A DNA stretch of 45,539 nt from Spirochaetales bacterium (GCA_016936295.1 JAFGYD010000042.1:1-45539), one strand, 5' to 3'. Positions 8,112 to 19,471 are shown, numbered from the stretch's first letter. Numbers and translations are program-made. The notes: generated by a model from the letters alone, not told the origin.

Positions 8112-8426
8112 TTATTCATATTTTTTAACAGCTAATTGTTTATACATCATATCTGCAATTCCCAATCCTGCTGTTTTAGACATTTTTTTTGCATATTCAT
8201 CATATAACATGTCATCAAATATTTTCTCACCCATGTTTTCTTTGATTAGATCAGACTTATTAACTGTACTCTTCATAGCACTGAGCATCTGTTTGATAAA
8301 CATTGCTTCAAATTCTTCACAAGTCTCTCTTAATTTTTTATCATCTGCAGTTCTCTCAATACTTTTTTTAAGAGATGTTGCTTTTGTATTTCCAATTAAC
8401 TGGTCTGTATCTATCAAATTATTCAT
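8112..8426 (-). CDS. FlgJ-type rod-binding protein (no muramidase domain)
   Basis: 104 aa; 'LRETCEEFEAMFIKQMLSAMKSTV...MGEKIFDDMLYDEYAKKMSKTAGLGIADMMYKQL' matches the rod-binding domain pattern. Confidence 0.85.
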   Translation of the reverse strand: MNNLIDTDQLIGNTKATSLKKSIERTADDKKLRETCEEFEAMFIKQMLSAMKSTVNKSDLIKENMGEKIFDDMLYDEYAKKMSKTAGLGIADMMYKQLAVKKYE

Positions 8427-8456
8427 ATTATATTTTTCGTCAGTATAAAAAAAAAC

Positions 8457-8831
8457 TTAACTCAAATAGTTGAGATCAAGCATAACCTGCATAATATATT
8501 TAATTAAATCTAACCCTAATTCATCACTACTTTCATTAACTATAAGTTTGATATATTCCCACTCTTCTTCGTTAAATGGATCTTTATCTATATCATAGTT
8601 TTCTTCAAATAATTCAAACACATTAATCAAATTATAAAGTGCATCTTTAAAATCTCTATCTGTATATGTTACAAACCTACTATAAATTTCAGAAGCACTA
8701 TCTTCTGGTAAATATCTAAAAGCCTCTAAAAAAACTTGTAAGAATTCATCTTGATACTCCTCAACAGGCTTATCGTGATATTTTTTAAAAATTTTTGAAA
8801 CATTTTTACTATATAATTTGGACGATTCCAT
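8457..8831 (-). CDS. acidic hypothetical protein
   Basis: 124 aa ORF within the block, 8 nt after the Skp gene. Confidence 0.75.
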   Translation of the reverse strand: MESSKLYSKNVSKIFKKYHDKPVEEYQDEFLQVFLEAFRYLPEDSASEIYSRFVTYTDRDFKDALYNLINVFELFEENYDIDKDPFNEEEWEYIKLIVNESSDELGLDLIKYIMQVMLDLNYLS

Positions 8832-8839
8832 AATAACTC

Positions 8840-9346
8840 CTAATTCATTAACGCTTTTATTACTAATTCTGTTACATCAACATCGTTATGATACCAAATT
8901 AAGTTAGGATCACTTGATTGAAAAATAACAGAATAACCATTTTGCATTCCAACCCTCTTTATAGCTTCTTCAAACTTTTTAGAAAAATCATTTTTAGTCG
9001 CATCAGAAGAAATTCTAGCATTTAATTCCATATTTTTATATCTGGTATACTCTTGAAGATTAATTTTTTTAATCTGTAATTCACTCTCTAATTGGGCAAC
9101 AAGATCGATATTATCATCATCTCTTGCCTCTATTAATTCTTTATCAATTTGATCAATTTCAATTCTTCGTTTTGAAATTTCTTCTTGAATAGTTTTTTTA
9201 TACTCATCAAATTTTCTTGCATCTGCAGATTCTTTAATAAATCTGGTATAAACTTCATTAACATTAACAACACCAACTTTTGTTAATTCATCTGCAAAAC
9301 TATTAGTTAAAATTAGTATAAATGATATTAATAATATTTTTCTCAT
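8840..9346 (-). CDS. Skp/OmpH-family periplasmic chaperone
   Basis: Signal peptide, 'KVGVVNVNEVYTRF', long coiled coil, C-terminal 'GYSVIFQSSDPNLIWYHNDVDVTELVIKAL'. Confidence 0.88.
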   Translation of the reverse strand: MRKILLISFILILTNSFADELTKVGVVNVNEVYTRFIKESADARKFDEYKKTIQEEISKRRIEIDQIDKELIEARDDDNIDLVAQLESELQIKKINLQEYTRYKNMELNARISSDATKNDFSKKFEEAIKRVGMQNGYSVIFQSSDPNLIWYHNDVDVTELVIKALMN

Positions 9347-9355
9347 TTCGTCTCC

Positions 9356-11854
9356 TTATTGTAATAGATAGTTTAAGTTTAGTGCGATACCCCAGGTCAA
9401 ATTACCACCAAAAATCTTATTATACTCACTCTCCGGGCTCCAAACAATATCACCATCCTGGGTATAAAAGGTTTTAGCCATAAAGAAAGATATTGGCATA
9501 ATCTGATTTGTTATACCTAAACTACCACCAAATGAAAATTTAAAATCATCCAGTTTTAAACTTGCAGTATTATCATCTCCATTCCATATATTTGCTGCAT
9601 CAAAAAATAGAGTTGCTCCAAACATATTAGGAACAATAGGAGCATTAATTTCAACTTTTAAATCAAGCAATGCTTCCCCATCTCCCTCTTGTGACCAACC
9701 TCGTCCTACAAACATTCCATCTATTTTAGCATTTTTTGCAGCACTATCCAATTCTGTACCTGGTTTTGCAAAAATCCTTGTATAAGCTGCATGTAATCGA
9801 AGTGATAGAATAAAATTCCACTCTTCTGTTACTGGTTTATCCAAAATTTTAAAGAATACATCTCCATTTGTTATAGATTTAATATAATCTAAATTCTCGT
9901 CTGTAGGAATTATTCCACCAATCGATAAATTTTGTGATAGACCATATCCCTTTGTTGTACCTACAGGGACATCCCTTTTATCTAGTATAACTTTACCCCA
10001 GACTCTATCTGTAAACTCCCAAGTTCCTGCATCCCTTCTATACTCAGTTTTATATGGAGTATAGTCGTCGTTATATATTAATGTATCCATTGAAGATATA
10101 TAACCTAATGAACCTCTAAGTCTTCCTGCATCTGTATACCATAAATGTCCACCAGAAATGGCTAAGGATATATCATATTTATTTAAATCCAATTCAGAAT
10201 CTTTAACAGAGTTACCATCATCAACCCATTCTTCATATTTAGAATAACTTTCAAAACCAACTGGGTATTCATTCCCTTCTAAATCATAAAGAACTTGTCC
10301 TGCTTCATCCAATTGTAATTTAAGAATATCCTCTTTAGTATGTGTAAATGATAGAGAACCACCACCAAAATACTCAGTATTCAATATTCTTGGCTCAGTA
10401 TATTCTAAAGAGAAAGATTGAGTATCCAGACCCAGATTTAAAGAACCACCAAAAGTTCTACCCATCCCCATAAAGTTTGTATCCTTCAAACTAAATGATA
10501 GTGCTGGCTCAAACTCCGCACCAGAAACTGTTATTCCACCCATAAGATTTAAAGTTCTAGCTTCTTCAACCTCAAAAACTAAATCCATATTCCCTTCATC
10601 ATTTTTATTTAATTGAGGGTATGTATTGGTAAATAGTCCTGTACTCATAATATTACTCATAGATGTCCAAACTTCCTGACGGCTAAAAACATCTCCTGGT
10701 TCTATTTGAATCTCTCTCAAGATTACAATATCCTTTGTTTTACTATTTCCCGAAACTTTTATATCTCCAACATGGGCTACACCCCGCTCAATAATTGTAA
10801 TTGTATGGGAAATAATTTTATTCTCTTCATCTATTTCTACTTCATCATGAAAACTATTTTCTATATATCCGTTATCATAGTATAAACTCTGAATTTTAAC
10901 AAAACGTCCCTCATGTTTACTTTTATTATACATATCACCATATTTTAAAAACTCAAATTTATCAAAGTCCGATGCTTGAAATATTTCATTTCCAACATAT
11001 TGAATTCCACCATATGTATAGACATCACCCTCTTCGATAAAAAAGTCAATTATCATATTTTTAACATTTGGATCTTTTTCATCATCTTCAATGGTTGTTT
11101 TAACATCTAAGACTGATGCTTTAGCATAACCATTATTTCGGTATAAACCTTCAATTAATAGGATATCTCCTTCTAAGACATTTGGTCTATAAACACCATC
11201 CTTAAATAGTGTTTTCTTTTTTGTCTCAATTAAAGAACGTAATTTATTGTCTGTTGCATATAAATTATTTCCATGAAAATTTATCTCTTTAATTAAAGTT
11301 TGGGTTCCCTCTTCAATTTTAAAAACAACGGAAACGGAGTTATCTTCTGGATTACTCTCTTTTATTGTCTCTATAACAACACTATCGTAACCCTTATCTT
11401 TGTATAAGTTTTCAAGTAGTGTTTTAGCTCTTTCTAATTTAAAATCAGAATAAATATCCTTTGCTTTTAAAACAATTGTACTAAAAAGCTCTGTTTTCCA
11501 TATAGAATCATTCCCTTCAAAGGTAATTTTTGATATATAGGGAGCTTCTTGTACTTGAAATACAATAATTACAGTATTCTTAGAATCATTTCCAGGTTTA
11601 GCATTTGGAACAATAAACTCAAAATAATCTAATTCGTACATTATTGTCTGTAGTTCCAAAAATAGATCATCGCTAAATATTTTTCCTATATATGGTGTAA
11701 CAATACCATTTAATTCATTTTTATCTACATTTACTAATCCTTCAAACTCTACATCAACAATGGTTGCACCATCAATCCAAGATGTATCTTCCTGGGAAAA
11801 AAGTGTTGTAAGAGCAAACGAAATTAATATTAAAATATAGTTAATTTTTTTCAC
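9356..11854 (-). CDS. bamA: outer membrane protein assembly factor BamA
   Basis: 832 aa; signal peptide, several POTRA-like repeats, barrel with 'GRGWSQEGDGEALLDLKVEINAPIVPNMFGATLFFDAANIW'. Confidence 0.93.
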   Translation of the reverse strand: MKKINYILILISFALTTLFSQEDTSWIDGATIVDVEFEGLVNVDKNELNGIVTPYIGKIFSDDLFLELQTIMYELDYFEFIVPNAKPGNDSKNTVIIVFQVQEAPYISKITFEGNDSIWKTELFSTIVLKAKDIYSDFKLERAKTLLENLYKDKGYDSVVIETIKESNPEDNSVSVVFKIEEGTQTLIKEINFHGNNLYATDNKLRSLIETKKKTLFKDGVYRPNVLEGDILLIEGLYRNNGYAKASVLDVKTTIEDDEKDPNVKNMIIDFFIEEGDVYTYGGIQYVGNEIFQASDFDKFEFLKYGDMYNKSKHEGRFVKIQSLYYDNGYIENSFHDEVEIDEENKIISHTITIIERGVAHVGDIKVSGNSKTKDIVILREIQIEPGDVFSRQEVWTSMSNIMSTGLFTNTYPQLNKNDEGNMDLVFEVEEARTLNLMGGITVSGAEFEPALSFSLKDTNFMGMGRTFGGSLNLGLDTQSFSLEYTEPRILNTEYFGGGSLSFTHTKEDILKLQLDEAGQVLYDLEGNEYPVGFESYSKYEEWVDDGNSVKDSELDLNKYDISLAISGGHLWYTDAGRLRGSLGYISSMDTLIYNDDYTPYKTEYRRDAGTWEFTDRVWGKVILDKRDVPVGTTKGYGLSQNLSIGGIIPTDENLDYIKSITNGDVFFKILDKPVTEEWNFILSLRLHAAYTRIFAKPGTELDSAAKNAKIDGMFVGRGWSQEGDGEALLDLKVEINAPIVPNMFGATLFFDAANIWNGDDNTASLKLDDFKFSFGGSLGITNQIMPISFFMAKTFYTQDGDIVWSPESEYNKIFGGNLTWGIALNLNYLLQ

Positions 11855-11870
11855 AATATCTCCTTAAATA

Positions 11871-14800
11871 TTATTTTGGGCTATAAATCCACTCCAGAGA
11901 GAGCCCTAACTCTGGTTCAAAAACATATTCATTATTCAATTTAGGTATAAAATTGAAACCAAGCTGAAAATGAGGGGAATATAGGGTAAAACCTAAATTT
12001 ACTTCAACCCCCAACTCCTTATTTTCAAATATAGATGCAACACTACTTTTAATAAAAAAATCATCAGTTATAAAATCACCAAAAGTAATGCTTGAATCTT
12101 TTAAGATTTCTGATAGATTATATATGCTTTCGTCACCAGTATCAAATGAATTATTTGTAATGTTTGTTAGTAAATTGGATATAAAACCCGATTTTATTTT
12201 TACATCATCTATACCAATTGCACGTTCCAAACCCTCTTCAAATGGAGCTGTTAAGTATGAAGTAGCTAACTCATCTATAATATCAAAAGCTAATAAACCT
12301 AGATCATCACCTGTAAAAGCAAGCCCTATTAATCTACTAATGTCTTCCTCTGTTTTAGTAGCATCAGATGATGAAAACTTTGGTTTAAAGTCGCTAAAAA
12401 GTCCACCATCATAACTAATATAAACTTCGACCTGCCTATCATCATCGTCAATAACTGTTTTTGATCCTAAAATACTAATTTGTGGATCAATATTATCCTT
12501 TGATATATCTAACTTAACTATTCCTTCTTTTAATATAAATGGTTTTCCTGAATAATCCACCTCTCCACTAACAATGGAGAGTTGTCCATTTACAAAGAAT
12601 TCATCGGTTATTGATTTATATTTTACACTTATTTGATCTCCTGGGTTCAAAGTTGCATTTACTACAGGAAAACTTTTAGTAGGCCAATACAGCTTATTGC
12701 TAGGACCAAATTTTAATAACATATCTAATTCAACACCTGCACTATCATTTTTTGCACTTTTATTTTGATTATTTATACTATTTTTTACACTATTTAGTTG
12801 TGTATAAAATTCACCTTCCTCAATTATTAAATCTCCAGTAATTAATGATCCAGAGTTATCCCAGTAAAATTGTAATTTTGAACTATATATAGATGTATCA
12901 ATAACAATCCTGTCATAGTAATATATAATAGGTATTTTTCCGGAATATGGAATTTCTAAATTTAACAATATAGAATCAATATTCCAGCTTTCAAATATTA
13001 TTTCTCCAGAAACATCGATTTTACCTCTATCTCCAACTAGAATATTATTATTTAACACTGTAAATTTATTATCTGTAACACGTATATTTATACGTGTAGG
13101 TTTTACTTCATCCTTAAAATAATTTATAGTAACATTTGTATCCAGCCATAAAAGACCATTAATTACCGGTTTATCCATATCTCCAGATATTTTAATATCA
13201 CCATGTAATTCTAGCTGTTTAATATTAACAGGTTTTTGAGCAGTATTATCCATGGGGATAAAATCATTTATAAATGAACCATCAATATTAATGTTGGAAA
13301 TAGATAAATCTAATTTATTATTTAAAATTTCCCCGGTAATTATACTTTCCATAAAGTAGGGTTTTACTATTTTACCATTTACTACACCAGTAGTATATGA
13401 GTAGAATAGTTTTAAATTTTTATCTAATGAATATACTTGAAGAGCATTTCTATTTTTAAAAAAACGAAATGCTTTATTTTGAAAAAAAGTCTTATCGTTA
13501 CTTTTCATTGAAAGAATATTAATTTTCCCATTAAACAATGATAATAAATCATTATTTATTAGAAGTATATTTTCTGCAGGCTGAATATTTGTTTCCAATG
13601 TTAAATTAGTAATAACTCTATTTTCCCCAACATTAATATTACTCTCTATTTTACCAATGATATCCCCATTTTTATAATTATATGTTACTAATGGTAAATC
13701 TATAATATTATTATCAATTATAGCCTTAACATTAGTTATTGTTATTAAATTTTCATTTAGTTTTGCATTTAAATTTAAATCAACTAGACTCCTATTATAT
13801 TGAACTTGATTTGCAATAAAGGATCCTGTTCCATTAAACTCTTCTAAACTCCCTTTAAATTGGAAATTAGCATCTGCAACACCTTTAAGACCAGTAATAT
13901 TTAATCTTTCCAGTATAATTTTTTCTAACCCCACAGTTATATCATAGTTTTTAAAATCATTACTTATGTTTGCCAAGAGGTTAGCTTTTTCACTTTTATT
14001 TTCAAAAAATCCTTTTGCTGCGTATCCATTATCACCTTTTAATGCAATCTCAATTTTACCATTTAAAGGAGCAATATTATCTTCCAAAATTAAATTGCTT
14101 ATTTCTATATTTGAATTTGAACCATTAATTACCGCCGATAATTTGGGAGAGAAAGGTAGATTAGCACCAGTTAACTCTAAGTTTAAATTTGGTATTGAAA
14201 AAATGAAAGAATTCTTTTCTTGGTATAAACCTTTAAATTCTATTGTTGAAAGTAAGCTATATTCTTTGTAATTAATTGGTAGATCTTTAGCTCTAAGGGT
14301 TATATAATAACTGCCATCAAATATATATGTACCATCTATTCCATACGAACCTGTACAGGTGATTTTATTATCAGAATATTGAACGTTCAACTTATACTTA
14401 TTATCATTAAATAGTGCATCAACAGTAAATTTTGACTCTTCCGTACCAATATTCCCTGAAATTTGACTCTGGATTTCTATATCAGGCAGTGTAATTTTTA
14501 ATTGATCTATTTCAAAGTTATAGTCTGTGCCATGTCCCTCTAACTCACCAATAATATTTTTATTAACATCTTTTAATACAAAATCATTTATAAAATAATT
14601 AGAGATACCTTCTATATAATTAAAATCTATATCACACGATATATCTCCACCACTAATATAGGGTGTTAATAATTCGACCTGTGAAAATGTATTTAAAATA
14701 TTAGTATTCAAGTCAGTAACTTTAATATTAGCGCTTAAATTCTTTGACTCTAAATTTAGTTTTGATGATAATGAGATTCTTCCATTTTTATCATTTTTTA

Positions 14801-16124
14801 ACGCTTTTAAACTTATTGAACTTTCATCTATGAAAAATAGAGCTTTAATATCAGATATGTTTAAATCACCTGTTTTTAAATAATCGAAATTTAGACTTAC
14901 AAAATTATCATCTATAATTTTGGTATAAAAATCTGCATCGAAATTAATATTATTAATATTTAAGTCTCTCACATAAAAACGACCCTGCGGAAATAGTTTT
15001 TTAAGATCAATACCTCCATAGAATCCAATATAGCCATACTTTGTGCTAACATTTAATTTTTTTACTCTTAAATAATTTAAATCACCAACTGCATAAATAT
15101 TCCCGGAAAACCACTCCTGATCTATCTTTATATCTCCATTTCCTTTTATAGAATAATCAAAGAAATTATTATTTATATCGTGTACACCACTAAATTCACC
15201 TGTAAATTTAGAGCCTAAGTAGGAATCCAACTTGGTAAAATTAGAGTTTGGTATAAAAATATCTTTTATATCTATATTTTTACCTTTAAGCCAGTAGTAA
15301 TTTTCCATTAAATTTATTTTTATTGTAAATAAATAATCTAAATTACTTTTGTCCCTATTTCTTATACTAACCTCATCTTTGTTTATAATAATGTTTGTAT
15401 CTAAATCTTTAACAGTTCCAATATCTGAAACTGTATTTTTGGATTTAACAATTGAATTTATCTTAGAAAAATTATGGGATAAATTTCCACTTGCTTCTAT
15501 ATCAGCGGTTATATATTTAAAGGGAAGTTCAATTTTTGAATTATAGGTTACTTTTGCTTTAAGTTTAGAAGTATATCGATTATATCTCCCTGTAATAGAA
15601 CCATTTAACTTATTTACTTCTAAACCCATAACCTCATTATTTATATATACATCGATGTCTTTTGCATAAAGAGTTGTTTTTATAATAGATATAGAGTTGC
15701 CTGATCCACTAAAAAGATTTAATAACCATGGATCATCGACATCTAAATGAATTGAACCATTACTTAATGTTACATATGTTAAAAATTGTGGAGGATCAAT
15801 TTTTTTCCATGATGATAAAATAATATTTATAATATTAAATTTTATTGTTACATTACCTATATCAAGACTGTTTATCCCACTAGGGCTACTTAGTTTTAAA
15901 TTATTTAACTTTATAGAGTCTACAATTAAGGGAGACATAGAAGAATAACTAATTTTAAGACCTGTTTTATACTCAAACTCCTTAATAATAGTCTCTCTTT
16001 TATTAAAAATTTCTGTTTGTAATTTTTCTATTGATGGTTTTATTACTATAAAAACTATAAATGACAATATTAATAAAGAGAGGATCTGTATAAAATTAAA
16101 TACTCCTTTATTTTTTATATACAA
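11871..16124 (-). CDS. tamB: TamB/AsmA-like translocation and assembly module protein
   Basis: 1417 aa; N-terminal membrane anchor, long beta-rich repeats, DUF490-like C-terminus; TTG start overlapping the upstream gene by 17 nt. Confidence 0.85.
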   Translation of the reverse strand: MYIKNKGVFNFIQILSLLILSFIVFIVIKPSIEKLQTEIFNKRETIIKEFEYKTGLKISYSSMSPLIVDSIKLNNLKLSSPSGINSLDIGNVTIKFNIINIILSSWKKIDPPQFLTYVTLSNGSIHLDVDDPWLLNLFSGSGNSISIIKTTLYAKDIDVYINNEVMGLEVNKLNGSITGRYNRYTSKLKAKVTYNSKIELPFKYITADIEASGNLSHNFSKINSIVKSKNTVSDIGTVKDLDTNIIINKDEVSIRNRDKSNLDYLFTIKINLMENYYWLKGKNIDIKDIFIPNSNFTKLDSYLGSKFTGEFSGVHDINNNFFDYSIKGNGDIKIDQEWFSGNIYAVGDLNYLRVKKLNVSTKYGYIGFYGGIDLKKLFPQGRFYVRDLNINNINFDADFYTKIIDDNFVSLNFDYLKTGDLNISDIKALFFIDESSISLKALKNDKNGRISLSSKLNLESKNLSANIKVTDLNTNILNTFSQVELLTPYISGGDISCDIDFNYIEGISNYFINDFVLKDVNKNIIGELEGHGTDYNFEIDQLKITLPDIEIQSQISGNIGTEESKFTVDALFNDNKYKLNVQYSDNKITCTGSYGIDGTYIFDGSYYITLRAKDLPINYKEYSLLSTIEFKGLYQEKNSFIFSIPNLNLELTGANLPFSPKLSAVINGSNSNIEISNLILEDNIAPLNGKIEIALKGDNGYAAKGFFENKSEKANLLANISNDFKNYDITVGLEKIILERLNITGLKGVADANFQFKGSLEEFNGTGSFIANQVQYNRSLVDLNLNAKLNENLITITNVKAIIDNNIIDLPLVTYNYKNGDIIGKIESNINVGENRVITNLTLETNIQPAENILLINNDLLSLFNGKINILSMKSNDKTFFQNKAFRFFKNRNALQVYSLDKNLKLFYSYTTGVVNGKIVKPYFMESIITGEILNNKLDLSISNINIDGSFINDFIPMDNTAQKPVNIKQLELHGDIKISGDMDKPVINGLLWLDTNVTINYFKDEVKPTRINIRVTDNKFTVLNNNILVGDRGKIDVSGEIIFESWNIDSILLNLEIPYSGKIPIIYYYDRIVIDTSIYSSKLQFYWDNSGSLITGDLIIEEGEFYTQLNSVKNSINNQNKSAKNDSAGVELDMLLKFGPSNKLYWPTKSFPVVNATLNPGDQISVKYKSITDEFFVNGQLSIVSGEVDYSGKPFILKEGIVKLDISKDNIDPQISILGSKTVIDDDDRQVEVYISYDGGLFSDFKPKFSSSDATKTEEDISRLIGLAFTGDDLGLLAFDIIDELATSYLTAPFEEGLERAIGIDDVKIKSGFISNLLTNITNNSFDTGDESIYNLSEILKDSSITFGDFITDDFFIKSSVASIFENKELGVEVNLGFTLYSPHFQLGFNFIPKLNNEYVFEPELGLSLEWIYSPK

Positions 16125-16779
16125 TTGTCAACTCTCCCCTACTAGAAGATTCACTCTCACTAAAATGAAACTTCGCTACATATTGCTTAACAAGAATATC
16201 AAACTCTACAGATCCAGAACCCGGGGGTTTTATCTCTATATCATAAACACCACCACTTTTGTCTACGGTAAAGTAAACAGTTACTCCCACACCTGTAAAT
16301 GACTTTTCAGGAAATGATGAGAAATCAATAGAACTATTATTTTGTAAAGTTCTATTATTACTATCCCATTTAATACTAGGTCTGGACTCATTTTCTTCAA
16401 GTAACTCTTCAAAAGTAATCATTTCTGTTAAAGAATCCTCAAAACTACTTATATCCATTTTTTTAATGGATATATCAGAGTCATACTCCTTCTTTCTTAA
16501 AACTAGATCGGCAACCTGATTTGTTTTAATTAAATTATCAACTTCAGGATCACTAGATTCTGGTGTTTTTTTATTCTTACTCTCTATTATATCGACATTC
16601 TGAGCTATAACATCCCTGCTATTTGGTACAATTTCATTATTATTTTTTAATATTATTTCAACGGAAATAGGGTCATTTTCTTCTTCTAAAATTTTTTTTT
16701 GAGGTAAAAAAACTAAAGCAACCATTAATATAATTACATGAAAAGCCAATGATATAGAGAGAGAATTTATATATTTCAT
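16108..16779 (-). CDS. TonB-like energy transducer
   Basis: N-terminal TM 'SLSISLAFHVIILMVALVFL', low-complexity linker, C-terminal 'GVGVTVYFTVDKSGGVYDIEIKPPGSGSVEFDILVKQYVAKFHF'; immediately follows exbD. Confidence 0.75.
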   Translation of the reverse strand: MKYINSLSISLAFHVIILMVALVFLPQKKILEEENDPISVEIILKNNNEIVPNSRDVIAQNVDIIESKNKKTPESSDPEVDNLIKTNQVADLVLRKKEYDSDISIKKMDISSFEDSLTEMITFEELLEENESRPSIKWDSNNRTLQNNSSIDFSSFPEKSFTGVGVTVYFTVDKSGGVYDIEIKPPGSGSVEFDILVKQYVAKFHFSESESSSRGELTIVYKK

Positions 16780-17174
16780 AACCTTTTAACAACTAATGAA
16801 ATATTATTAAATCCTAGAACTTTTACTCTATCCATAATACCCATTAAAAATTCATAGGAGATATGTTTATCACCTTCAATAATAATAGTTGGCTCTTTTA
16901 AACTACCAACACTATTTAACAATGAAGCAGAAAAAGATGAAAGTGTAGTCTCTTTATCGTTAATAAATATTCTCTGATCTTCGGTAATAACAACTTTTGT
17001 CTCTATTTCACCAATACTAGAACCTGAAATTGCTTGTGGAACATTAACTTCAACTGCTTTATTTTTTTCAAAACTGCTATTTAACACAAAGAAAATTAAA
17101 ATTAAAAACATGATATCAATTAATGGTGTAATTATTAATACATTTTCATCAGTTAGTGTACCTTTTAATTTCAT
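16776..17174 (-). CDS. exbD: ExbD/TolR-family biopolymer transport protein
   Basis: 132 aa; 'ITPLIDIMFLILIFFVLNSSF' with the conserved TM Asp. Confidence 0.93.
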   Translation of the reverse strand: MKLKGTLTDENVLIITPLIDIMFLILIFFVLNSSFEKNKAVEVNVPQAISGSSIGEIETKVVITEDQRIFINDKETTLSSFSASLLNSVGSLKEPTIIIEGDKHISYEFLMGIMDRVKVLGFNNISLVVKRL

Positions 17175-17767
17175 TATGATCCTTTTACTGCTAAAATTTC
17201 AGAAGATGAACTTTCCATTAAACTAATGTGTCTTTTAATAATTGAAATAAATATAGAATAAAACAACATAGCAGGGATAGCTGTAATTAATCCTGCTGCA
17301 GTAGTTAGTAAAGCTTGAGAAATTCCACCTGCTAATGTGTATGGATCTGAGCTTTTTGATACCATCATTTCATAAAATGTAAATATCATACCTGTTACTG
17401 TACCTAATAATCCCATTAATGTTGACATATTGGCAATTGAGGATAAATACGTAACATTTTTCTCCATTTCAAAGATTTTTCTCTGGGCAAGAGCTTCTAC
17501 TTTATATGAAAAAACTGTTCTATTTCCTTCTCCTAATAACTTAGCTTCGTATTTAATAATATCTGCTGTTGGAGATTTTTCAGTTTGAATAGCATCAAAT
17601 GCCTCTTTATATCTACCTTGCAATAATTTATTTAAAGCAAAATCTATTCTTTTCTGTTTTTTTATTCTTATTTTATAAAAATATATGGATTTATTAATAA
17701 TTAAACCAAGAGATACAACTGATAAAATTATAATTGGTAATAAAGCATATAAATTTTTTAATAACAA
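17174..17767 (-). CDS. exbB: ExbB/TolQ/MotA-family proton channel protein
   Basis: 197 aa; 'MSTLMGLLGTVTGMIFTF...GGISQALLTTAAGLITAIPAMLFYSIF'; TTG start overlapping the upstream gene. Confidence 0.92.
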   Translation of the reverse strand: MLLKNLYALLPIIILSVVSLGLIINKSIYFYKIRIKKQKRIDFALNKLLQGRYKEAFDAIQTEKSPTADIIKYEAKLLGEGNRTVFSYKVEALAQRKIFEMEKNVTYLSSIANMSTLMGLLGTVTGMIFTFYEMMVSKSSDPYTLAGGISQALLTTAAGLITAIPAMLFYSIFISIIKRHISLMESSSSEILAVKGS

Positions 17768-18831
17768 ATCTTTAATGGATTTCCAACCTTATATTCAAAC
17801 ATTAAGCCTACTTTAATTTCTCTTAGATCCAAATCATAATGAATATAATTATTTAGGGAAAACTTCTGATTATATGAGATTCCTAAAGAAAATTTATATA
17901 AATTAAAATCTAAAATATTTAAAGAAATTATAGAGTTAAATTTATCTTTAATAAAGCCGAAGTTAAAGTTTAATTCATTTAGAGACAATAAATATTCTCT
18001 CTCTCCAAAAAATAAATTTTCTTTAATATAAAAAACAGGCTCAATGTCGTAATTATTAAGTTGAACTCCTCCACTTAACAATATTTTTCTTTGTAAACCA
18101 TATGTAAAACCTGTTAAATATCGTATATCTTCACCAATTAATTCTGTATAAAAAGTGTAGGGTACATACATTATTTTTTTATCAATTTTTAAATATGGAT
18201 AGAAATTATTTTTCACAACAGAAACACCAATTTTTATATCATTTGAACCTAATCCAATATAACCATTATAAAAATTATTAGAATTAATACTAAATGTTAA
18301 AAGAGGATGAAGAGGTCCTTTACTTTCAAGATCAATTTTTCCTAAAAGACTCTCATTATTTAATAAACCATATATTGAAAGAGAGAAAGGAAGCCTATAT
18401 TCAGAATATAGTAATCCCATATAATAATTAAAATTTATAGGATTTAAAGAAGCCTTACCCAACATTTTAAACTGATTACTACTATATTCAGGGGAGAACC
18501 CAATGTTAAAGGATTCAAAATCTGTTTCAGAAAATAATGAATATGAATAAAATCCCTTTGTTGTAATTTTTCTATTTAAAAATTCATTGTATTCATAGTA
18601 CTCAATACTATTTATATCTATGCCTCTAACCAATATGTCATTTAAATAAATGTCTGTATTATCTATTGTTTCTATTGGTGTAAAGGATTCTATTGGAAAA
18701 GGTGGAAGCGGGAGAGAATTTTGAGAAAATTTCTCAGGAATAGTTATAATTATTCCTTCCGACATTGCATCTAAATTATTGTATGAGTTAATAAGATATA
18801 TAACAATTAAAATCTTTATGATATTATTCAC
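17758..18831 (-). CDS. putative outer-membrane beta-barrel protein with TonB-box/plug-like N-terminal segment
   Basis: 357 aa; signal peptide, N-terminal 'EGIIITIPEKFSQNSLPLPPFPIESFTPIETI...IYLNDILVRGIDINSIEYYEY', then alternating beta-strand pattern; GTG start. Confidence 0.65.
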   Translation of the reverse strand: MNNIIKILIVIYLINSYNNLDAMSEGIIITIPEKFSQNSLPLPPFPIESFTPIETIDNTDIYLNDILVRGIDINSIEYYEYNEFLNRKITTKGFYSYSLFSETDFESFNIGFSPEYSSNQFKMLGKASLNPINFNYYMGLLYSEYRLPFSLSIYGLLNNESLLGKIDLESKGPLHPLLTFSINSNNFYNGYIGLGSNDIKIGVSVVKNNFYPYLKIDKKIMYVPYTFYTELIGEDIRYLTGFTYGLQRKILLSGGVQLNNYDIEPVFYIKENLFFGEREYLLSLNELNFNFGFIKDKFNSIISLNILDFNLYKFSLGISYNQKFSLNNYIHYDLDLREIKVGLMFEYKVGNPLKICY

Positions 18832-18837
18832 TGATTT

Positions 18838-18865
18838 ATTTTACATATAAAGGATGGTTATGCAA
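18838..18865 (-). promoter_or_regulatory. candidate promoter for the envelope block
   Basis: TTGCAT (18860-18865), 16-nt spacer, TAAAAT (18838-18843) on the minus strand; expected start site at the GTG codon. Confidence 0.4.
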
Positions 18866-19471
18866 ACAGAAGTTCTTAATAATTTTATTGTTCTGGAAGG
18901 TCTTGATGGGTCCGGGACTACTACTCAATTAAAAAAAATTGAAGAAAAATTATCTGAAATGGGAAAAACAGTTTTTTCAACCTGTGAACCTACAAAAAAT
19001 GAAATAGGAAAACTAATTAGATCTGTTTTACAAAAAAAAATAGTTATGGATCCTGTTACAGTTAGTCGTCTATTTGTAGCAGATAGAAATGAACATATAT
19101 ATGGAATAAACGGAATTAAAGAACGGACTAAAAGAGGTGAAATTGTAGTTAGTGATAGATACCTTTTTAGCTCTTTGGCTTATCAATCCCCTCAGTGTGG
19201 ATTTGATTTTGTGAAAATAATTAATTCAGACTTTCCTCTTCCTGAGTATCTATTTTTCATATCAACACCTGTTAAAGAGTGCCAAGAAAGAATTCATAAA
19301 CGAGGAGATGAAAAAGAACTTTTCGACGATGCAGATTATCAACAGAAAGTTGATGATAATTATAGAAAAGCTATAGAGTTATATAAAAACAGCGGAGTTA
19401 AAATTTTTATTATTGATGGGTTAAAATCAATTGAAAATATCACTAATGAAATAATAGATATAATTCGATAA
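18860..19471 (+). CDS. tmk: thymidylate kinase with altered Walker A (GLDGSGTTTQ)
   Basis: 'NFIVLEGLDGSGTTTQLKKI', 'VSDRYLFSSLAYQ', LID region. The second ATG (18860) has SD AAAGGA at 5-nt spacing; the ORF track uses ATG at 18854. Confidence 0.9.
   Translation: MQTEVLNNFIVLEGLDGSGTTTQLKKIEEKLSEMGKTVFSTCEPTKNEIGKLIRSVLQKKIVMDPVTVSRLFVADRNEHIYGINGIKERTKRGEIVVSDRYLFSSLAYQSPQCGFDFVKIINSDFPLPEYLFFISTPVKECQERIHKRGDEKELFDDADYQQKVDDNYRKAIELYKNSGVKIFIIDGLKSIENITNEIIDIIR

Follow-up and report, generated by a model that had tools for sequence, protein, structure and literature searches.

ExbB-ExbD-TonB-like genes joined to tamB-bamA-skp in spirochaetes: a candidate motor at the outer-membrane assembly bridge

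The proton-driven motor formed by ExbB, ExbD and TonB normally powers nutrient uptake, and we know of no motor genes alongside tamAB in Escherichia coli. Here we describe a locus in which the two kinds of gene meet: in a 45,539-nucleotide stretch of DNA from Spirochaetales bacterium (GCA_016936295.1, JAFGYD010000042.1:1-45539; hereafter the window), the minus strand at 8112-18831 encodes exbB, exbD and a tonB-like gene immediately in front of tamB, bamA and skp. The best single explanation of this arrangement, to which we assign a probability of roughly 0.45, is a dedicated motor driven by the proton motive force (PMF), consisting of ExbB-ExbD and its own TonB-like arm and acting at the TamB-BamA bridge, with which we infer a physical contact.

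The pairing of tamB with bamA in spirochaetes is itself already known. One of the closest described counterparts is the hybrid of the beta-barrel assembly machinery (BAM) and the translocation and assembly module (TAM) in Borrelia (BB0794-BB0795). Borrelia lacks TamA, the BamA barrel is predicted to be completed there by TamB (PMC13382580), and a direct TamB-BamA complex has been reported with support from experiment and modelling (PMC13382580, PMC11361582). The window possesses the gene trait of this hybrid, namely tamB adjoining a five-POTRA bamA, and it shares TamB with the E. coli TAM (TamA-TamB) while having BamA itself as the partner. Unlike in Borrelia, ExbBD-TonB genes stand in front of tamB, whereas the small-genome, apparently Borrelia-like family f20 has no ExbD. 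With the TonB-ExbB-ExbD receptor energiser, the locus has in common ExbB, the transmembrane Asp of ExbD, the S-xxx-H motif in the transmembrane helix of the TonB-like protein and a probable TonB-type C-terminal domain, but the genes are encoded together with tamB-bamA-skp rather than with a receptor. With Tol-Pal (TolQRA-TolB-Pal), it shares the motor superfamily, a periplasm-spanning arm and an envelope function. The general view is that BAM operates with no energy source (PMC13067283). In a literature search that left most subscription papers and all preprints outside its scope, we found no paper linking ExbBD or TonB to TamB or BamA in spirochaetes, and a paper on TAM evolution leaves TonB and Exb unmentioned.

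Gene order, distribution and descent of the motor block

Nine minus-strand open reading frames (ORFs) run in the 5' to 3' order from a gene for an outer-membrane protein (OMP) through exbB, exbD, tonB-like, tamB, bamA and skp to genes for an acidic and an FlgJ-like protein (Table 1), all of them with the coordinates, order and strand given by an earlier reading made from the sequence alone (hereafter the sequence-only reading). The coordinates yield overlaps of 10 nt (OMP/ExbB), 1 nt (ExbB/ExbD), 4 nt (ExbD/TonB) and 17 nt (TonB/TamB), followed by gaps of 16 nt (TamB/BamA), 9 nt (BamA/Skp), 8 nt (Skp/acidic) and 30 nt (acidic/FlgJ). Thus, both the overlap lengths and the later gaps of 8-30 nt reported in that reading hold, but the overlapping junctions number four, not the first five.

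For a survey of 61 relatives, the positions of ExbD were compared with those of BamA, and the respective stretches were read and annotated. The usual order in the window's class is a divergent tmk gene followed by tamB-bamA-skp. The exbB-exbD-tonB block is found in front of tamB-bamA-skp in five families of this class, f1 (genera g1, g2 and g5), f7, f13, f19 and f22, and where tmk adjoins the block, it flanks the side away from tamB, so that the block is placed between tmk and tamB. Wherever tonB and tamB are both present at the locus, including in other classes (L065-L067), tonB directly precedes tamB, and in 11 of 13 class loci their frames overlap, by exactly 4 nt in six. In all five genomes of genus g4 (L030, L134-L137), the order is OMP-tonB-tamB-bamA-skp, without exbBD at the locus and with the S-xxx-H motif of TonB still present; conversely, the OMP gene is absent in family f7 and genus g5 (L017, L019, L026, L027), which keep exbBD-tonB-tamB. 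In genus g3, the whole block is missing from the locus. The position of tonB, directly before tamB, usually overlapping it and kept there when either exbBD or the OMP gene is gone, argues for TamB or BamA as the client of the motor.

Shorter forms of the adjacency extend to about eleven families of other classes. Specifically, exbB-exbD directly precedes bamA in f36, f38, f48, f52, f55, f59 and f61; the bamA-linked pair is accompanied by tonB in f47 and one f36 genome and by tamB in f39; and both tonB and tamB are present in f45 and f62, the latter without exbB at the locus. The adjacency is accordingly not confined to one strain, and because the order is conserved in other genera and families, a chance arrangement is implausible. 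If these envelope genes were only co-regulated in a conserved neighbourhood and not functionally coupled, the same pattern could result, given that tmk and other unrelated genes also hold their positions and that exbD lies beside an RNase gene in some sister loci; nevertheless, the recurrence of 4-nt overlaps, the retention of tonB by tamB after the loss of exbBD and the presence of the arrangement across classes make this explanation very improbable.

In a tree of ExbB and ExbD from 69 loci, from which L028 was left out because its ExbB, embedded in a 706-aa ORF, aligned poorly, all 15 class cluster loci fall on one side of a branch with 96 bootstrap and 92 SH-aLRT (Shimodaira-Hasegawa-like approximate likelihood ratio test) support that is recovered in 98% of the bootstrap trees. 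This tamB-linked branch is separate both from a der(engA)-linked family and from the receptor-linked sets. When placed on a BamA tree of the class (a quick search with 53 rows), the loci with a whole or partial block need four state changes, compared with an average of 17.8 for shuffles. These results fit an old operon that was probably inherited with a few losses, on trees that are unrooted and in which some long branches are unsure.

The der/engA-linked family represents a second ExbB-ExbD-TonB-like set, on a branch of its own, that is conserved across the class (L036-L047) and present in the window's genome (L034:1077-13534). ExbBDs of this branch also occur in genomes without receptors, namely G032 and its near relative G057, which have one ExbD each and no Plug domain; therefore, a receptor-free ExbBD is not unique to the tamB locus.

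The motor residues are largely retained. The P-L-[IL]-D motif of ExbD, with its transmembrane Asp, is present in all 16 class cluster loci, and S10 and H14 of the TonB-like protein (the S-xxx-H motif), as well as G176, G189 and D194 of its C-terminal domain, are invariant among 19 homologues. Taken alone, the TonB-like protein of the window scores below the curated cut-off of TIGR01352 (E 2.4e-4; 21.4 bits against 27.1), in contrast to conventional energisers, whereas a profile of the 19 homologues matches TonB in the PDB with E 6.9e-9 and TolA with 5.8e-4. The ExbBs of the class clusters also differ from the energisers in that Q, R or S occupies the place of the E. coli ExbB Glu E176, in a motif exemplified by GGISQAL, in 16 of 16 tamB-linked cases; this place varies in some receptor-linked ExbBs too, so that the residue is no strict family criterion. 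The TamB protein of the window has no Pfam match by itself, and PF04357 is detected in 10 of 13 aligned TamB proteins (best E 9e-23).

A few loci depart from the common pattern. At L018:11215-11956 and L022:3145-3833, the tonB-like gene runs across two frames, through assembly error or decay; in G046 (L028:966-12769), the ExbB ORF of 706 aa and the TamB ORF of 2515 aa are far above the lengths elsewhere; and in L086 (family f21), bamA-skp adjoins tmk with no tamB in the stretch read.

Candidate clients of the motor

An ordinary TonB system could be encoded at this locus and energise TonB-dependent receptors made elsewhere in the genome. Several Plug proteins are usual in the sister classes with exbBD before bamA, and genome G003 encodes one receptor, with the ExbD of the cluster being its only ExbD. 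However, in G037 (99% complete), G031 and G056 (95%), all at least 95% complete, the single ExbD is the cluster one and neither a Plug domain nor a TonB-receptor barrel was detected, which contradicts this explanation for these three genomes unless they contain unrecognised receptors. Moreover, the receptor-linked ExbBDs lie outside the tamB-linked branch, and the window's genome encodes a single Plug protein, which has an exbB-exbD-exbD-tonB set of its own next to it (L035:5204-10456), the TonB of this set passing PF03544 at 1.7e-17. In that genome, the cluster motor might still serve this one receptor. Thus, in part of the group, the motor occurs without a detectable receptor, classical receptors do not appear as its sole clients, and we consider an ordinary TonB system a distinctly poor candidate.

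Another candidate is a Tol-like system that, without TolB and Pal, links the two membranes and holds the envelope together at division, in which case the bamA neighbourhood would reflect envelope co-expression. No TolB scores over the cut-off in any of the 61 genomes, and none at all is detected in G000, G001, G031, G037 and G056, which sets these genomes apart from those with Tol-Pal and is compatible with such a reduced system. The top model for the window ExbB is TolQ, albeit far below the TolQ cut-off, and depletion of TamB in Borrelia, as quoted in PMC13382580, leads to chains of unseparated cells. Nonetheless, the profile of the arm is nearer to TonB than to TolA, the operon contains no recognisable pal-like gene, and ExbBD is wholly absent from many relatives. 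On these grounds, a Tol-like role seems improbable.

The most serious alternative client is the barrel encoded by the first gene, to the N-terminal periplasmic tail of which TonB would bind as it does to the TonB box of a receptor, powering transport, with bamA, tamB and skp being neighbours as barrel assemblers. The window OMP has no match in Pfam or NCBIfam. Its AlphaFold2 model, of modest confidence (predicted local distance difference test, pLDDT, 63), has 20 strands at 92-354 after a disordered N-terminus, and Foldseek retrieves only generic porin- or VDAC-like barrels with low template-modelling (TM) scores. Homologues or positional equivalents are present upstream of exbB in relatives. 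In the sister classes, the gene before exbB encodes a conserved OMP family of 480-510 aa (L054-L058, L060, L072; e.g., L057:3933-5441), which adjoins exbB-exbD-bamA-skp in several families. When one of these proteins was modelled, a BtuB-like barrel was obtained (TM 0.72, E 7.6e-15), with the plug absent; the sequence profile of the family gave chance matches only against the PDB, and kinship with BtuB is therefore a matter of fold. The N-terminus of the window OMP contains a TonB-box-like segment, EGIIITI. With a weight matrix derived from ten receptor N-termini, which is rough, as are the signal-peptide ends, the top-scoring TonB-box match within the protein lies at the mature N-terminus in 3 of 16 OMPs (the window, L014 and L067; p ~0.07 each over 22 positions), most of the remaining ones being unremarkable. 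The test over the 16 OMPs is thus weak, family f7 and genus g5 keep exbBD-tonB-tamB without the OMP, and a barrel without a plug would form an open pore, so we regard the barrel as a rather unlikely client, if one to be taken seriously.

Several observations nevertheless weigh against a TamB-BamA motor. Most class cluster loci begin with the barrel gene, and the BtuB-like fold of the sister-class protein is what makes the barrel a serious contender. Furthermore, exbBD is paired in most sister-class loci with bamA but with neither tonB nor tamB, and TamB-BamA-Skp is encoded in genomes without any ExbD, such as G044 and G049; therefore, the basic machine can do without the motor, and the coupling is not universal. 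No such motor is described for the TamB-BamA complex of Borrelia, and anterograde phospholipid transport in E. coli has been described as diffusive rather than energy-dependent (PMC11226057). A conserved neighbourhood alone is no proof of a joint mechanism.

Other features of the locus

The features of the locus are listed in Table 1. The start codons of the OMP gene and the divergent tmk are 22 nt apart (18831-18854 of the window), so that promoters would overlap the coding sequence or each other; a promoter and terminator scan of the locus performed no better than shuffles. The acidic protein has no family match in Pfam/NCBIfam-type scans. The genes for the acidic and FlgJ-like proteins follow skp in all three loci of the window's genus (L005, L014 and L015), a position that they occupy in no other cluster locus. 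The FlgJ-like gene had led the sequence-only reading to propose a link to the flagellar rod, which finds no support given that this neighbour is confined to a single genus. The core of that reading, a dedicated ExbBD-TonB module tied to TamB and BamA, has fared better, with the adjacency extending beyond one strain and receptors failing as the only clients.

Table 1. Features of the locus in window coordinates
Feature	Coordinates	Strand	Description
OMP	17758..18831	-	Signal peptide, disordered Pro-rich tail of ~70 residues, barrel of ~20 strands, no plug domain
ExbB	17174..17767	-	MotA/TolQ/ExbB proton channel, PF01618 E 2.5e-27; Q/R/S at the E176 place (subfamily trait)
ExbD	16776..17174	-	PF02472 E 8.4e-27; transmembrane Asp within PLIDIMF
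TonB-like	16108..16779	-	N-terminal transmembrane helix with S-xxx-H, linker, divergent TonB C-terminal domain
TamB, 1417 aa	11871..16124	-	Start overlaps tonB by 17 nt; relatives match PF04357; adjoins bamA
BamA	9356..11854	-	Five POTRA (PF07244 x5) and Omp85 barrel (PF01103); TIGR03303 395.6 bits, cut-off 297.15
Skp/OmpH periplasmic chaperone	8840..9346	-	PF03938 E 1.2e-17
Small acidic protein	8457..8831	-	Seen in the window's genus only
FlgJ-like rod-binding protein	8112..8426	-	PF10135 E 5e-16; without peptidoglycan hydrolase domain; genus-specific neighbour
tmk	18854..19471	+	Divergent boundary marker; homologues similarly placed in most genomes of the class

A proposed motor for the TamB-BamA bridge

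Four observations underlie the idea of a motor at the TamB-BamA bridge: the genes keep their order and overlap, their ExbBDs form an inherited subfamily of their own, the motor residues have been retained, and some genomes have no detectable receptor client. In the mechanism that we propose, the motor would be made in step with TamB, and protons passing through ExbB and ExbD would move the TonB-like protein via its S-xxx-H membrane helix. The C-terminal domain of this protein could then engage the outer-membrane end of the TamB-BamA conduit, that is, the C-terminus of TamB, the POTRA domains of BamA or, during its engagement at that site, the co-encoded barrel. Cyclic pulling might accelerate the release of barrels or the flow of lipids through a passage that is otherwise energy-free, with Skp acting as a putative feeder of substrate. 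The contact, the direction of the work and the cargo are all inferred parts of this proposal.

Should this be the case, the locus could represent an ExbBD-TonB system of a third kind, distinct from those that serve nutrient uptake or Tol-type maintenance, in which a proton motor forms part of the TamB-BamA assembly bridge. Some spirochaetes would have inherited it as one operon, and other lineages, which have TamB-BamA alone, would have lost it or never acquired it. We put this wider interpretation forward tentatively. Because the reading frames of the motor genes overlap with those of the assembly genes even in genomes without detectable receptors, our findings suggest that the building of the outer membrane may be powered in the window's group. 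If true, energised outer-membrane biogenesis becomes a directly testable question, for which close relatives provide natural controls, the motor at this locus being complete in some, partial in others and absent from others again.

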